Assembly: GCA_025059745.1 (NCBI GenBank)
Contig: JANXDH010000004.1
Location: 1 to 47,782, forward strand
DNA from: Aigarchaeota archaeon
Lineage (GTDB): Archaea; Thermoproteota; Nitrososphaeria_A; Caldarchaeales; Calditenuaceae
Reading direction: 5' to 3'
DNA: 47,782 bases
How positions within the stretch are numbered: position 1 is the first letter of the stretch; each line of letters begins with the position of its first letter. This document shows, one piece after another, positions 11,246 to 26,689 of this stretch. The position numbers and the translations under genes are program-made. Below the pieces are notes generated by a model. That model had not been told where the DNA came from. It did not search any database and worked only from the letters and a program-made list of their open reading frames with translations.

Positions 11246-12169
11246 GTACACTGAGAGCGCTGCATCGATCAAGTCCGCTGTAGAGCCAGGCCTCAGGTCG
11301 CGGCTCCTCATGTATGCGTCCAACTCGCCTAGCAGTCTTGTGAACGTCCTCAGGTCCCCCGGGTCTGCATCGATCAACTTCTCCGCTAGGCCTCTGACTA
11401 TCGTGGCGCTCGCCGCGCCTCTCCTCCTCGTTATGTGGGTGTCAGCTACCTTTGAGAGGACCTCGATCATGGCTCCCACCAAACCGATCTCTGAGAAGTC
11501 ACCCTCCCTCATCCACCTCATCAATGTGGGTAAACAGAGGTCAAACGTCTTGGAGTAGCCGCTCAACAGCTCGTCCATAACTAGATCCCTTCCTTTGTAC
11601 GGTCTCAGCACGTCTATGAATCTGGGTCTCGTCGTCCTGATCAAACGGTACGTGGAGGTGTCTTTGACGTCTAGGAAGGGTACCTTCCCCAGTCCACCAG
11701 GTGAGGCTCTCGCGATAGCCCTGAAGAGGCCGATAGCATCGCGCCAGTCGAGTGAGTCGATGAGCCGATGCAGCGCGCTCCTCATCTCTTTGACTGTTAT
11801 GGTGCCCCCTCTCCTCACCAGATGTCCACTTACGTAGGCTATCGGAGAGAGCAGTATGATGGCGCCCAAGTGCGTGTTGCCGCCCCTCTGAGAGCCGAGC
11901 ATCACATCGACCGACCCCTGAATGAGCTTACCTACCTCGCCACCTACCAGCCCCATTCGACCGCCGGCCCTCGCCGCCCTCTCGAAGGATCTCGAGAGAC
12001 CGATGATTGAGTAGACGAAGTCGGAGAACGATGTCCCTGGGACTCCCCTGTAACGATCGATCAGAGCGGGCTTGGGATACGCGGAGGCCTCGAGGATGAG
12101 GGCGGACGTTATCTGGTCAGCGACCCAGATGTATCGGCTTGAGAGTCTCGAGTCAGAGTTTGCGCGCAT
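11219..12169 (-). CDS. Triphosphoribosyl-dephospho-CoA synthase (CitG) family protein
   Basis: A 316-residue all-helical protein with CitG-family motifs: SAYPKPALIDR near the N-terminus, GGNTHLGAIILLSPIA in the middle and GSTADLIDAAL at the C-terminus. Bacterial CitG makes the prosthetic-group precursor of citrate lyase, but no citrate lyase gene is in this window. Archaeal homologues are widespread without a lyase and their role is not settled, so the reaction here is open. The frame extends to 12298, but those codons lie inside the upstream methyltransferase gene; ATG at 12169 gives a 17-bp overlap with that gene and a family-like N-terminus. The 3' end overlaps hel308 by 27 bp. Confidence 0.8.
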   Translation of the reverse strand: MRANSDSRLSSRYIWVADQITSALILEASAYPKPALIDRYRGVPGTSFSDFVYSIIGLSRSFERAARAGGRMGLVGGEVGKLIQGSVDVMLGSQRGGNTHLGAIILLSPIAYVSGHLVRRGGTITVKEMRSALHRLIDSLDWRDAIGLFRAIARASPGGLGKVPFLDVKDTSTYRLIRTTRPRFIDVLRPYKGRDLVMDELLSGYSKTFDLCLPTLMRWMREGDFSEIGLVGAMIEVLSKVADTHITRRRGAASATIVRGLAEKLIDADPGDLRTFTRLLGELDAYMRSRDLRPGSTADLIDAALSVYLLTSRPLP

Positions 12170-13055
12170 ATACTGACCTCTCTCTCGAACACCACCTGAC
12201 GGAGAACCCTGAGTTACGCAACCTCTCCATGACTCCCTTGTAGATCGACTTACCGGTTCTCGCACCAGGTAGGCCCACGTAATGGACCATCTCTCCACCT
12301 CTCACCATAACCCGGGCGAGCTCGCGATAGAAGGAGGCCGAGTAGAGGTCGCCGGCTACGGAGATCGTGGGAGGGTCGTGGATCACCACGTCAATTACGT
12401 TATCGGATAATCTGGAGACCACGTCCCTGACGTCGTTCAGTATCGTTTTAACCGCGCTCTCGCGGAGTCTCCTAGACCACGGATTCAGCCTCGCCAGCTC
12501 GATCACGTTCCTGTCCCTCTCGACCGTGATTATCAAAGAGGCGCCCCTCCTCAACGAAGCGATGGCCGTGTATCCCAGTCCTGTGCAAGTGTCTAGGACG
12601 GTCCTTCCCCTCACGCTCCTTATCAGCGACACCTTCATGGATGCGTCCTCCTCCGGCGTCACGCCACTAACCCGGTGCATGTGGATGCCGTCTATCTCTA
12701 CGGTCGGTGCGTATCCGAAGGAGGTCTTCACGAGCTTATAGTAGTGATCGCCTCTCACCTCTGCCCTTTTGAGCTCGTTCCCTTCGACGTAGTATATCGA
12801 CCTCTCGTCGCTGATAATTGACTGTAGTAACGTCGCATCGATCTCTCCTTCATCTACCACTAACCGTCGATTGAACAGTCTGAAGGTCTTTGGTGGAGAG
12901 TGACCTAAATCCGGCGAGAAGGAGACTGTCTCGTCTCCCGATTCTAGAGCCTCCACTACCGCTCTACAGGTCTCGGAGGTGAAGAGCGTAAAGTTGAGTG
13001 GCCTGAACTCAAAGAGTCCCTCCAGATCTTCGAGTATCCCGCTCCTTACGAGCAA
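12153..13055 (-). CDS. Predicted archaeal SAM-dependent methyltransferase (COG2521-like)
   Basis: A 300-residue protein with a Rossmann methyltransferase core: motif I VLDTCTGLGYTAIAS (about residues 153-167), motif II ending ITVERD, and motif IV VIHDPPT in place of the usual NPPY or DPP form. The last residues (CSRERSVYARKL) resemble archaeal COG2521 proteins, whose substrate is unknown. The N-terminal 130 residues form a separate domain that might bind RNA or a small molecule. TTG at 13055 is chosen because a TATA-like ggtataagta on the minus strand is centred near 13086, about 30 bp upstream. The gene overlaps the next gene (CitG-like) by 17 bp. Confidence 0.8.
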   Translation of the reverse strand: MLVRSGILEDLEGLFEFRPLNFTLFTSETCRAVVEALESGDETVSFSPDLGHSPPKTFRLFNRRLVVDEGEIDATLLQSIISDERSIYYVEGNELKRAEVRGDHYYKLVKTSFGYAPTVEIDGIHMHRVSGVTPEEDASMKVSLIRSVRGRTVLDTCTGLGYTAIASLRRGASLIITVERDRNVIELARLNPWSRRLRESAVKTILNDVRDVVSRLSDNVIDVVIHDPPTISVAGDLYSASFYRELARVMVRGGEMVHYVGLPGARTGKSIYKGVMERLRNSGFSVRWCSRERSVYARKL

Positions 13056-21941: not shown

Positions 21942-22951
21942 TCGAGTTTCACCTTATCCAATGCTCTGAGGGCATCTAAAAGACCTTCTGCGTATACTAC
22001 AGAGACCAAGCCGTCGACGACGCGACCGGAGTTTATGAAGTTCTCGGCGTCCTCGAGATAAGATCGGGCGAGAGCGATCACCTGAGAGACGCCTACCTCG
22101 TTGACTGTCCAGAGATCTCTCATCACCCGCGAGGTGTTCTGGACGTACTTGATGGTCCTCTCCTTGAGCGATGGAGGAGGGTTATGTCTCGATATCGCGT
22201 CCTGTCTCCCCTTCAGCAGCACGCTTAGCGCCTCCCGTTCAGTCGAGTGCAGTCCGGCCGGAAATATCAGGCAGTGTGGGGGCGGCGGGAGTTTAAGGTC
22301 CTCGATCTCACCTATCGTTCCTACCCACCTCACCTCTCCGGACAGGCCCAATCTAGCCAGCACTATAACCAGTCGTTGAGGATCGAGTTGCTCTCGACCG
22401 AGGTTGATTAGTATCCGAGCGGCCTCACCCGCGGTCATACCTCCCATCGCTGTATCGAGTAATACGAGAGTGTGGAGGCCGTATGACGAGTTGCTAGCTA
22501 TCGTCTCGCACACGTGGCCAGCGCTCTCCCTCGCCGGGGACCTAGCCAAAGTCGCTATTCGTCCGAACCTGTAAGGGGAGAGGCCGGAGGAGGCTGAGGC
22601 GGCGGATACTATCGATACGCCGTGTATGACCTCGTACTCGATTGCCATCCTTTCGGCCATTACGAGCATCGCTATGTGGGTGGTGGCAAACAGAGGGTCT
22701 CCGGGTATCGCTACCGTCACGTCCCCTATGCGTGCGTCATCGATCACCTGCTTGACGTCGTCCTCGAGTAGCCCCCTGTCAGCCCTTACGACCTCCCTTG
22801 CGTTAGATATAATATATGATAATAACTCGTCCGAGACGTATCCCGTATATAGATCGAGGTAGACCCTCTTAGAGCGCCTTATAGATTCTAAAGCTCTTAT
22901 CGTCAGGTAATCTGGGCTTCCCAGCCCCAATCCAGCAAGCCTCAGGACCAT
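21935..22951 (-). CDS. dphB: Diphthine synthase with C-terminal DUF357-like domain
   Basis: A 338-residue protein. Residues 1 to about 255 are diphthine synthase, the SAM-dependent methyltransferase that modifies a histidine of elongation factor 2: the N-terminal MVLRLAGLGLGSPDYLTIRAL, VAIPGDPLFATTH and HGVSIVSAASASSGLSPYRFG motifs are typical. DphB is normally about 260 residues; here about 75 extra residues (265-335) form a helical domain (VSQVIALARSYLEDAENFINSG, then VDGLVSVVYAEGLLDALRAL) resembling DUF357. In other archaea DUF357 is usually a separate small protein, often near FAD synthase; here FAD synthase is the next gene. The start is ATG at 22951. Confidence 0.9.
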   Translation of the reverse strand: MVLRLAGLGLGSPDYLTIRALESIRRSKRVYLDLYTGYVSDELLSYIISNAREVVRADRGLLEDDVKQVIDDARIGDVTVAIPGDPLFATTHIAMLVMAERMAIEYEVIHGVSIVSAASASSGLSPYRFGRIATLARSPARESAGHVCETIASNSSYGLHTLVLLDTAMGGMTAGEAARILINLGREQLDPQRLVIVLARLGLSGEVRWVGTIGEIEDLKLPPPPHCLIFPAGLHSTEREALSVLLKGRQDAISRHNPPPSLKERTIKYVQNTSRVMRDLWTVNEVGVSQVIALARSYLEDAENFINSGRVVDGLVSVVYAEGLLDALRALDKVKLEW

Positions 22952-23010
22952 ACAACGATAGTAAGGATCGAGCTGGATTTAAGCAGGGGTGAGACTAGTC
23001 TACCGTGGGA

Positions 23011-23036
23011 GACGTGTCACCTAAATGTTACACGTC
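23011..23036. promoter_or_regulatory. Inverted repeat GACGTGTCAC/GTTACACGTC at the end of the par operon
   Basis: Arms 23011-23020 and 23027-23036 match at 9 of 10 positions around a 6-bp spacer. The right arm covers the stop codon of the gene ending at 23028. No T-tract follows. The arms contain the same (A)CGTGTCAC core, the reverse complement of GTGACACGT, that resembles the sites upstream of the operon, so a partition-protein site is more attractive than a terminator. Confidence 0.4.
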
Positions 23037-23444
23037 GTATATAGACGTCCTCAGCCGCTCCCCCATCTCCTCTAGAAGCGCGATGGCCTCCTCTATCCTA
23101 CCCTCCCTCAAGAGTTCACCCAGTTCCACGAACCAACTGTGCCTCTCTTCTCCCAGTAGGCCGAGGTAACTCACTAGTAATACGGTGAACATGGCCTCCC
23201 TGATGTTCTTCATGGCCTGACCGATGATCTTGGCGTAGGACCCCCTGCTTACGCCCAGGGCGTCTGCCTTAAGTTGATAGCTTGCGCGCCTGCCTAGTCC
23301 TGAGTGGCGGAGCTCGGTCAGTATGGCCTCCAACTGCCTCTCGGTCAGAGAGGACTCCCTTGATAAGAGCCTCAGAACCGGGTTCCTTAGGAGTTCTGAT
23401 GCGCTCTCCAGCTCGAGGAGTGACTCGGATCTTTTTTCACTCAT
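23028..23444 (-). CDS. Small helical protein of the par operon, possible DNA-binding factor
   Basis: A 138-residue, strongly helical, charged protein with no family I recognise. Residues 30-80 include SLTERQLEAILTELRHSG and LKADALGVSRGSYAKIIGQA, which look like a helix-turn-helix; the C-terminal third (WFVELGELLREGRIEEAIALLEEMGERL) resembles a single helical hairpin repeat. It starts 12 bp after the parA stop with an aaggag ribosome site. A DNA-binding partition or cell-cycle partner of ParA is inferred from position only. Confidence 0.55.
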   Translation of the reverse strand: MSEKRSESLLELESASELLRNPVLRLLSRESSLTERQLEAILTELRHSGLGRRASYQLKADALGVSRGSYAKIIGQAMKNIREAMFTVLLVSYLGLLGEERHSWFVELGELLREGRIEEAIALLEEMGERLRTSIYDV

Positions 23445-23456
23445 CTCCTTCCTCAG

Positions 23457-24383
23457 CTAGACAGTTTTGTCAACGCCCAGTTGAAAAAGCTTGGACTCGC
23501 CCTCAACGCCCCCTACACCCGCGGTAATACTCCTGGAGTGTGACCCGATTCTCTCGAGGATCTCAACTGTCAGTGCCTCATAGGCCTTGGAGACGGGTGA
23601 GTCAGGGTTGTATATTACACACGGCCTCCCGAGGAAGTGGCCCTCTTCGAGCCTCACGCTCGACGGTATCTCGGTCCTCAGTAGCGACTCGCCGAGCCTG
23701 TGCCTGAGGTCCTGCCTGATCTCGTGGGTTATCTTGTACCTGTTGTCTACCATCGTGAGGAAGTGACCGAGTACTTCGAGCTCAGCCCTGAGCCTACTAT
23801 GGAGTAGTTCGATGACGTGATAGAGCCGTCTCAGTCCATCTATGCTGAAGTACCTCGGCTGTATTGGGACCAGGACGAACTTGGACGCGTAGAGCGCGTT
23901 GAACGTGAGGACTCCGAGGTTCGGGGGAGTGTCTATTATTATGAAGTCGTACCTCATCGGTAGGCTCTCTATCAGTTTGCTGACCACCGCCTCACGCCCG
24001 GGTTGTCGGGAGATGTACTCCTCGGTGGCCGCGAGGTCCTCATTGCTCGGTAATACGTGAAGCTTATCGATAGGCGTCTCCCTTATGATCTCCTTGACGG
24101 GTTTGTAGGAGGTGAGGGCCGCGGAGATCGAGAACTCGGTGCTCACCCTCTCGAGTCCGAGGGCTAGACTGGCGTGACCCTGTGGGTCGAGGTCGACTAC
24201 CAACACGTCCATCTTGAACTTATGCGCCAGAACCGCAGCGACGTTAACGACCGTGGAGGTCTTCCCTACTCCGCCCTTCTGGTTGGCGACCGAGATCCTG
24301 AGCGGGTGACGTGGGAGATACGTCACATCCGTCTGACTCGTCCCACTAGTCATACGTGTCTCGTGTGGCGCCCCTATTACCAT
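23457..24383 (-). CDS. ParA/SegA-type partition ATPase
   Basis: A 308-residue ParA-family ATPase with deviant Walker A QKGGVGKTS (35-43; signature Lys36 and catalytic Lys41), switch I VDLDPQGHASLALG and Walker B FIIIDTPPNLG. Such ATPases bind DNA as ATP dimers and move chromosomes or plasmids with a DNA-binding partner. About 28 residues precede the usual start; this N-terminal tail could bind DNA, or translation may begin at Met11. The ATG shares one base with the stop of the preceding gene (TGATG), so the two are coupled. Neighbours are all chromosomal, so this is likely a chromosome segregation (Seg-like) system rather than a plasmid remnant. Confidence 0.9.
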   Translation of the reverse strand: MVIGAPHETRMTSGTSQTDVTYLPRHPLRISVANQKGGVGKTSTVVNVAAVLAHKFKMDVLVVDLDPQGHASLALGLERVSTEFSISAALTSYKPVKEIIRETPIDKLHVLPSNEDLAATEEYISRQPGREAVVSKLIESLPMRYDFIIIDTPPNLGVLTFNALYASKFVLVPIQPRYFSIDGLRRLYHVIELLHSRLRAELEVLGHFLTMVDNRYKITHEIRQDLRHRLGESLLRTEIPSSVRLEEGHFLGRPCVIYNPDSPVSKAYEALTVEILERIGSHSRSITAGVGGVEGESKLFQLGVDKTV

Positions 24384-24694
24384 CAGGTATCACCCTTAAC
24401 CAGCCTGCTCTCGATCTCCCTTAGACCCAGCTTGACCGAGAGGCGGAGTACCTTCGAGAAGAGCCCCCTGTTATCGCCCAACAGCTCCTGAGACCTCGAG
24501 AGCTCGGAGACCAGCCTCTCTATTCTCCTGTAGTCCTCCGGGTCTAGGTAGAAGTGCACCTTCCTTCTTTTGTCCGAGGTGACCTTGAGCTCCTCGGTCT
24601 GGGCGACGCTGACGTTAGATATCATGTCCTCGACTCTAGGCAACAACCTGTCTAGATAGTTTTGGGGGAGTCGTCGTTGTGGTTGGCCTGACAT
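24383..24694 (-). CDS. Small DNA-binding protein, possible ribbon-helix-helix partner of ParA
   Basis: A 103-residue protein. After a polar N-terminus, residues 44-50 (RKVHFYL) form a likely beta-strand, followed by helices at 51-68 (DPEDYRRIERLVSELSRS) and 76-98, the order of a ribbon-helix-helix domain. It is the first gene of the parA operon; a TATA-like gataaaag (24717-24724) is centred 26 bp from the ATG at 24694. SegB, the archaeal partner of SegA, is an RHH protein, so an analogous role is inferred; there is no clear sequence match I can claim. Confidence 0.6.
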   Translation of the reverse strand: MSGQPQRRLPQNYLDRLLPRVEDMISNVSVAQTEELKVTSDKRRKVHFYLDPEDYRRIERLVSELSRSQELLGDNRGLFSKVLRLSVKLGLREIESRLVKGDT

Positions 24695-24762
24695 GAGGCG
24701 TATACCTCTCCCGCGAGATAAAAGTACCCCTCAATACCCCGTGGATGATATGGGCGAGGTAT

Positions 24763-24819
24763 TACCCACGGGTGACGTGGGTATACGTGAGTGAACGTAT
24801 CTTACATGTGTGACGTGTC
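24763..24819. repeat. Phased GTGA(A)CGT repeats and inverted repeats upstream of the par operon
   Basis: The motif starts at 24772 (GTGACGTG), 24791 (GTGAACGT) and 24810 (GTGACGTG), exactly 19 bp apart. Two inverted repeats overlap them: TACCCACG/CGTGGGTA (24763-24770 and 24776-24783) and ATACGT/ACGTAT (24783-24788 and 24795-24800). The array lies 40-105 bp upstream of the TATA box for the par operon, in the 139-bp gap after the E1-like gene. It is a candidate centromere-like site or operator for the RHH-like protein. Confidence 0.55.
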
Positions 24820-24833
24820 TGATGAGTGGGATA

Positions 24834-26018
24834 TCAGTAACGCGGCATGCTTGAATCAACCTCTACCGCGTATCTGTCTATACCGCCTGCAAGGTTGAAC
24901 GTTCTACTGAGGCCGATGTCCCTCAGCAGCTTGACCGCTAAGGCGCTCCGCATCCCCGTGTGACAGTAGACGATGATAGTCTTGGTCTGGTCTATCTCGT
25001 GGAGCCTTGAGGGCAATTGGGTGAGGGGAATGAGTTTGGCGTTCTTGAGACGGACGATCTCCCACTCCACATGCTCCCTCACATCGATCACCTCTATATC
25101 GTCACCCCTATCGATCATCTCCTTGAACCTCTTGGGCTCGATAGACATGTTGTAGTCGATCTCCTCTCCCGTAACCCGGACTCCGCACATCTGCTCGTAA
25201 TCTATCAGCTCCTTTATCGTCGGGTTATCGCCGCAGATTGGACAGCGCTGGTCCCGCTTTACGGTAAGCTCTTTAAAGTTCGTCGAGAGCGCATCTATTA
25301 TCAGAAGCCTGCCTATCAGAGGTTGACCGACACCCAGTATGAGCTTGAACGCCTCGTTGGCCTGTATGGCACCGACCATCCCTGGCAGGAACCCTAGCAC
25401 TCCGCCCTCGGCGCACGACGGTACGGTTCCTGGAGGAGGAGGGTCTGGGTAGAGGCACCTGTAGCAGGGACCCTTTCCAGGGTAGAAGACCGTGACCTGA
25501 CCGTCGAACCTGAATATGCTGCCGTAGACAAGCGGTTTACCGGTCATGACACACGCGTCGTTGAGCAGGTACCTCGTCGGGAAGTTATCGGTCGCGTCTA
25601 TTACTATGTCGTATTCACGTATTATATCCAAGGCGTTCGTTGAGTCGATCACCGTATCGTAAATCTTGACGCTAACGTTGGGGTTGAGCGCCTCAAGCCT
25701 CCTCTTGGCCACCTCGACCTTGGGCTTCCCTACGTCGTTAGTATCGAAGAGTATCTGGCGCTGGAGGTTCGTGAGGTCGACCTTGTCGAAGTCTATCAGG
25801 CCGATGGTTCCAACGCCTCCCGCCGCGAGGTACATAGAAATTGGAGATCCGAGGCCCCCTGTACCGACCACCAGCACGCTGGCCCTCTTCAGCCTCTTCT
25901 GACCTGACATGCCGACCTCGGGCATGATGAGCTGTCTCCCGTACCTGCGTATCTCCTCGTAACTGAGGGGGACGTCCCTCTCGGTCTTCAAAACGCTGGC
26001 CGTTGAGCGGGTGACCAT
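24834..26018 (-). CDS. E1-like adenylyltransferase fused to a rhodanese domain (MoeB/ThiF/Uba4 type)
   Basis: A 394-residue two-domain protein. Residues 20-260 are an E1-like domain that adenylates the C-terminal glycine of ubiquitin-like sulfur carriers: nucleotide loop GTGGLGSP (52-59), zinc cysteines 185/188 (CYRC) and 259/262 (CPIC), and probable catalytic Cys202 in PSCAEGG. Residues 295-390 are a rhodanese domain with active-site Cys352 in CHTGMRS, which would supply persulfide sulfur. The same fusion is known for eukaryotic Uba4/MOCS3 and some bacterial MoeB forms. Likely targets are SAMP/MoaD/ThiS-like carriers for tRNA thiolation or molybdopterin; none is encoded here. Confidence 0.92.
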   Translation of the reverse strand: MVTRSTASVLKTERDVPLSYEEIRRYGRQLIMPEVGMSGQKRLKRASVLVVGTGGLGSPISMYLAAGGVGTIGLIDFDKVDLTNLQRQILFDTNDVGKPKVEVAKRRLEALNPNVSVKIYDTVIDSTNALDIIREYDIVIDATDNFPTRYLLNDACVMTGKPLVYGSIFRFDGQVTVFYPGKGPCYRCLYPDPPPPGTVPSCAEGGVLGFLPGMVGAIQANEAFKLILGVGQPLIGRLLIIDALSTNFKELTVKRDQRCPICGDNPTIKELIDYEQMCGVRVTGEEIDYNMSIEPKRFKEMIDRGDDIEVIDVREHVEWEIVRLKNAKLIPLTQLPSRLHEIDQTKTIIVYCHTGMRSALAVKLLRDIGLSRTFNLAGGIDRYAVEVDSSMPRY

Positions 26019-26128
26019 GCCCTCGTACCTACTGAACCCTCTTGAACGCTAAATTTATATTTAATTCGTAGGTCGCTCCTGACCAGAGTTTTTATAGAGT
26101 AGAGCGTTCTCCTTTTTTGAGTCGATCA

Positions 26129-26689
26129 TCACGAGATGACCTTCACCAACCCTTTGGACTCAAATGCATCCAATAGATCGAGCGGTATCTTAGCTACGTC
26201 GCCCGGCAGGTACGGACCAAACCTTCGGCCGTACTTATCGACGACCAGGGGTATCCGTTCAATGATCAGGACGGTCGGCGAGCTAACCTCGGAGAGCGAG
26301 ATGTTCGGCACCTCAAAGTTCGAGACGACACCGTCGATTACTCTCGTGTAGTTCTTCAACACGCGAGACATCATGGTGTAGAGCTCCCGTTCCATGGGTA
26401 GCGCACCGCTCAATCTGTCACCTCTCAGCACCATCTCTGTCACTTTCCTCATCCTTATGGATAAAAGGTCACCCAGCACGTAAGAGATCGCCTGAAGCTC
26501 CCTCTCCCTCAGCTGGGTATTGATCGATTGTCTCTCTGCGGCCAGCCGTATCTGCCTTCTCAAATTTATCGCGTATTCCTTAAGCTCGTTGATGAAGTCG
26601 GTCTTTAGTCCCACGAGCTCGGCCCTCGACTTCTCCTCCCGCCAGAGTTCGATCAGCCTCTCGTATACAGTACTCAACGTGATATTCAA
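26129..26689 (-). CDS. GINS complex subunit, Gins51 (Gins15) type
   Basis: A 186-residue protein with a long helical N-terminal domain (residues 1-125) followed by a small beta-rich C-terminal domain (about 133-186: VLIIERIPLVVDKYGRRFGPYLPGDVAKIP and LLDAFESKGLVKVI). That order is Gins51, opposite to the Gins23-type protein at 6548. It lies 20 bp after priS on the same strand, as often seen in archaea. Together with Gins23 it would complete the tetrameric GINS of the replicative helicase. Confidence 0.88.
   Translation of the reverse strand: MNITLSTVYERLIELWREEKSRAELVGLKTDFINELKEYAINLRRQIRLAAERQSINTQLRERELQAISYVLGDLLSIRMRKVTEMVLRGDRLSGALPMERELYTMMSRVLKNYTRVIDGVVSNFEVPNISLSEVSSPTVLIIERIPLVVDKYGRRFGPYLPGDVAKIPLDLLDAFESKGLVKVIS

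Follow-up and report, generated by a model that had tools for sequence, protein, structure and literature searches.

What does a short, repeated DNA motif upstream of a chromosomal parA operon do in an archaeon, and which protein recognizes it? We analyzed the terminal 47,782 nt (the window) of a 733-kb contig from a 1.17 Mb archaeal assembly that is 88.8% complete. Along the minus strand, a ThiF-rhodanese gene is followed by the repeat array, a gene encoding a 103-aa protein, parA, and a gene encoding a 138-aa HTH-like protein (gene 3). The features of the locus are as follows.

24834-26018, minus strand: fusion of ThiF (E1-like) and rhodanese domains, upstream of the array and in the same direction.
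24742-24835, plus strand: iteron array of about ten degenerate 9-10-bp units, including the three copies originally reported.
24762-24775, no strand: conserved palindrome core, TTACCCACGGGTGA (TCACCCATGGGTGA in the relatives), from the aligned upstream regions of seven genomes.
24716-24723, minus strand: probable TATA box CTTTTATC, read from the sequence, about 26 nt before the ATG.
24383-24694, minus strand: segB-like gene, 103 aa, assigned from an alignment, a low-confidence model and weak family matches.
24303-24326, plus strand: second iteron site, CGGGTGACGTGGGAGATACGTCAC, at the segB/parA junction in the 5' coding region of parA.
23457-24383, minus strand: parA, a deviant Walker-A ATPase (Pfam AAA_31, 4.9e-50), overlapping the end of segB.
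23028-23444, minus strand: gene 3, 138 aa, HTH_10/sigma-70-region-4-like by alignment A2 and weak Pfam matches.
23006-23042, plus strand: possible third site, TGGGAGACGTGTCACCTAAATGTTACACGTCGTATAT, at the end of gene 3.

The stop codon of the ThiF-rhodanese gene abuts the array. Gins51-like and primase small-subunit genes are found further upstream; the other flanking genes vary between genera. Judging from the usual archaeal promoter geometry, the operon mRNA is probably leaderless. An Rfam search of 22800-26200 returned no match.

The first-pass annotation had described three copies of a GTGA(A)CGT motif at an exact 19-bp spacing, overlaid by two perfect inverted repeats, and had read them as a centromere or operator array with sites lying on nearly one face of the helix. 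Re-reading the sequence confirmed the copies (GTGACGT at 24772, GTGAACGT at 24791 and GTGACGT at 24810, spacing 19 + 19) as well as the inverted repeats, which are TACCCACG-GGTGA-CGTGGGTA at 24763-24783, with perfect 8-bp arms, and ATACGT-GAGTGA-ACGTAT at 24783-24800, with perfect 6-bp arms. One such triple within 60 bp was observed in the window, and none was obtained in 400 second-order Markov simulations of it; for GTGACGT itself, 6.5 occurrences were expected in the window and 18 were found. The spacing, however, is not the basic unit, as 19 bp corresponds to two units (9 + 10) of a degenerate iteron of about 9 bp, TGGGTGACG, with the consensus TGKGTGACG in the array. Tiling the region with a 9-mer core, steps of 9 or 10 and a matrix trained on the relatives only placed unit starts at 24742, 24751, 24760 (inverted), 24769, 24779, 24788, 24798, 24807, 24816 and 24825, so that the array is longer than the three copies. 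This path has a mean score of 1.0, whereas control segments averaged -12.3 (sd 2.0, maximum -4.0, n=13,536). The units at 24760 (the inverted one), 24779, 24788 and 24798 are poor, and the number of functional units is consequently uncertain. The palindrome core consists of one inverted and one direct unit. When all seven loci, those of the window and its relatives, were considered, the same-strand score peaked at a lag of 9, with lesser peaks at 18 and 27. With a unit of roughly 9 bp (some steps in the window measure 10, those in the tandems of the relatives exactly 9), successive sites rotate around the helix, and the one-face argument was abandoned.

A different reading of the array, based on an ACGT core in 10-bp steps (24775, 24785, 24795), was rejected: a three-copy chain of this type arose in 5 of 300 simulations, and the matrix-based 9/10 tiling was therefore preferred. 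Elsewhere in the window, four ACGT tetramers fall within 45 bp at 12388-12433, inside a predicted methyltransferase-like ORF (12153-13055), where they are probably coding.

Conservation in relatives had been set beforehand as a test of the array, and the operons of six related genomes proved to carry the motif at the same two positions. These six, all Candidatus Calditenuaceae, carry the matching operon and provided the entire training set for an 11-bp weight matrix, with which both strands of the window (~95,500 positions) were scanned. The four highest-ranking positions in the window, in descending order 24807, 24769, 24303 and 23006, are all at the operon, and 24742 ranks sixth. The four best sites fall within 1.8 kb (3.9% of the window), an arrangement expected from random placement with a probability of ~2e-6. 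In the reverse test, in which the matrices were built without the genus being scanned, most of the top sites of the relatives were located at the segB promoter and the segB/parA junction.

At the promoter, the relatives carry TCACCCATGGGTGAC-RTG or near variants, with a further unit 27 bp on, and the window has TTACCCACGGGTGACGTG. The palindrome TCACCCATGGGTGA is conserved among them and mostly abuts or straddles the TATA box (CCTATAAAA). At the junction, where the relatives have GGGGTGACGTGTGTGACGTGGGTGAT, tandem repeats with a period of exactly 9 bp (GGGGTGACG-TGTGTGACG-TGGGTGATA and the like) are present in five of the six. The window carries two junction units 9 bp apart, at 24303 and 24312, the second scoring 9.0 bits; beyond the array, sites occupy 24303-24322 and possibly 23006-23042. 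Because the junction motif is kept despite a strand and a protein context other than those of the relatives, it is selected as DNA and not as codons. The 23006 site is tentative, as it is not consistent among the relatives. Around it, at and past the end of gene 3, positions 23000-23052 are rich in inverted repeats (GACGTGTCACCTAAATGTTACACGTC). In two relatives, L018 (2748) and L021 (2953), a strong TGGGTGACGTG site on the minus strand precedes segB by about 3 kb; it lies inside a gene common to both and may represent either a nearby partition site or conserved coding sequence.

The annotation had also called for a genome-wide scan of the motif and its position relative to the origin. Pattern searches showed that the motif is not dispersed above background, and the closest orc1/cdc6 gene lies some 114 kb away. 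Of the 18 genomic matches to YGKGWGACGTG, four are at the operon; the other 14, seen in their own genomic context, are in open reading frames with no second good site nearby. YGKGTGACRTG occurs 13 times in the source genome and 12 times in G001, which lacks the cassette. Exact matches outside the operon are thus no commoner in carriers than in non-carriers, and we rejected the reading of dispersed sites as background. Motif sites cluster only at the operon.

Next to the array, the 103-aa protein combines a conserved N-terminal RRxPxxYLxxLLP motif, a variable linker and, according to alignment A1 and the model, a C-terminal strand-helix-helix, a layout known from RHH partition proteins. This last region is ribbon-helix-helix (RHH)-like, with the strand RKVHFYLD and helices at 52-68 and 75-89. 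Its resemblance to an RHH protein is seen in the sequence pattern, in a monomer model of low confidence (pLDDT 65) and in weak, sub-threshold matches to RHH/Arc/partition families. A fold search with this model, which is too weak for the purpose, gave no match. The protein was found in 6 of the 60 relatives searched, all from one family. Searching 398 genomes of the phylum with the A1 profile retrieved nothing convincing outside that family (one marginal match, E 0.009), and neither relatives on viral contigs nor anything but spurious plasmid matches were found.

ParA carries the deviant Walker A motif KGGVGKT, and its best solved relative is the bacterial-type ParA 8ray (4.9e-50). Seven of the 61 genomes carry segB, and it is exactly these seven that carry parA (E < 1e-25); gene 3 is the next gene downstream of parA on the same strand in all carriers. 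Gene 3 has a wider distribution: it was detected in 46 of the 61 genomes, across the order and also where segB and parA are missing, and it has no confident Pfam family. In the relative L019 (7151-8552), about 1.4 kb separate parA from gene 3, unlike in the other carriers. In G003, apparently a non-carrier, the contig breaks off 45 bases short of gene 3, so an assembly gap may explain why segB and parA are lacking there. Two distant archaeal ParA loci, L052 and L053, were considered and set aside; the partner protein of L052 aligns over 24 columns only, which is not significant. Several relatives yielded no such cassette; it is therefore not a system by which the order in general segregates its chromosomes, and the question arises how the many relatives in which it was not found manage.

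Taken together, the sites at its own promoter and inside its operon, the adjacent ParA and the strict co-occurrence make the RHH-like protein the likeliest ligand of the array, and its binding there is plausible. We consider it probable, with a good deal of room for doubt, that the array is the combined operator and centromere (parS-like site) of a chromosomal ParA-RHH partition cassette. Our model suggests that RHH-like dimers bind successive TGGGTGACG units of about 9 bp, direct or inverted, and cooperate along the helix. With sites lying against the TATA box or on either side of it, the bound protein would repress its own promoter. The same protein-DNA complex would serve as the partition complex, which the ParA ATPase would contact through the N-terminal tail of the RHH protein and move over the nucleoid. 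Both autoregulation and partition are proposals of this model, partition being the less certain of the two. Conservation of the motif lends good support to the idea of a centromere or operator array, once this idea is freed from the 19-bp unit and the single helix face.

We also advance, more tentatively and with the balance slightly against it, that this is a partition system confined, among the genomes searched, to the Calditenuaceae, in which a bacterial-type ParA and an RHH-like protein without sequence relationship to SegB use an operon-built centromere of 9-bp iterons as the main chromosomal nucleation site. None of the papers found in the literature searched describes such a system for this lineage, a weak indication that it is new.

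The cassette could instead descend from SegAB, its SegB having acquired a different site, a reading we regard as somewhat unlikely. It shares with SegAB of Sulfolobales a ParA-type ATPase and a small, presumably site-specific DNA-binding protein encoded by overlapping genes, with sites upstream of and inside the operon (PMC12284271). The C-terminal RHH-like region of the partner, the sites at its own promoter and the archaeal chromosome point the same way. Against it, the A1 profile search of 398 phylum genomes yielded no convincing relative outside the family, searches of solved structures gave no match to a SegB, and the ParA of the window, a ParA-family ATPase, matches bacterial ParA (4.9e-50) far better than S. 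solfataricus SegA (1.1e-16). The gene order is also reversed, segA-segB there and overlapping segB-parA here. The SegB site TCTAGASTCTAGA (TCTAGA motif) differs from the TGGGTGACG iterons and is not enriched: with as many as 3 mismatches allowed, the window has 17 occurrences, and 21.7 were expected. Finally, SegB sites are scattered over the chromosome (PMC12284271), whereas here there is no excess outside the locus.

Sites confined to a single locus could also be an autoregulatory operator only, any partition relying on other or non-specific DNA. The position of the sites against or across the TATA box in most relatives fits this, as does their lack of dispersal. However, the segB/parA junction has further sites at a distance from the promoter, a simple operator would hardly need some ten units, and the RHH partition protein of plasmid pSM19035 uses its operators as a centromere too (PMC9499535). 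We judge a purely regulatory role unlikely. That gene 3, or another regulator, binds the array in place of the RHH protein seems to us very improbable: gene 3 encodes an HTH-like domain and directly follows parA in carriers, but it is also present throughout the order where segB or parA is missing, and such genomes have no tight motif clusters, the sites tracking segB/parA instead. Chance repeats or codon bias, which the mild abundance of GTGACGT in the window and the single copies in coding sequence might suggest, are already refuted by the 0 of 400 simulations, by the independent cross-species matrix that picks out the operon sites and by a footprint falling in non-coding DNA.

In operators of MetJ/Arc-type RHH repressors, tandem short boxes near a promoter are bound by successive dimers. 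The locus described here would share this layout, but its RHH-like gene is paired with parA and the sites recur at a gene junction. It resembles the delta/omega/parS system of pSM19035, in which a ParA works with a small RHH partner, and this RHH ParB binds contiguous short, non-palindromic repeats of 7 bp, direct or inverted, that overlap the par promoters, an established mechanism (PMC9499535). The sequence pattern and predicted helices of the 103-aa protein would fit such a partner with an N-terminal tail for ParA contact. Full activation of ParA in that system requires at least 4 contiguous repeats (PMC9499535), and here about ten 9-10-bp units, several of them degenerate, are present at the par promoter (24742-24835). 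The repeats themselves differ, being 7-bp WATCACW in the plasmid and about 9-10-bp TGGGTGACG here, and tandem WATCACW heptads are not enriched (19 found, 20.2 expected). The setting differs as well, a plasmid there and an archaeal chromosome here, no credible plasmid relative having been found.

Knowledge of chromosome segregation in archaea comes mainly from SegAB of Sulfolobales. As sequence homology to SegB, enrichment of the SegB site and the SegAB gene order were not found, we propose that the cassette would work like SegAB and pSM19035 without being filed as SegAB. The locus would represent a second compact arrangement of ParA and an RHH-like protein with a defined DNA site, from an uncultured hot-spring lineage, and its array sequence is short enough for in vitro testing.
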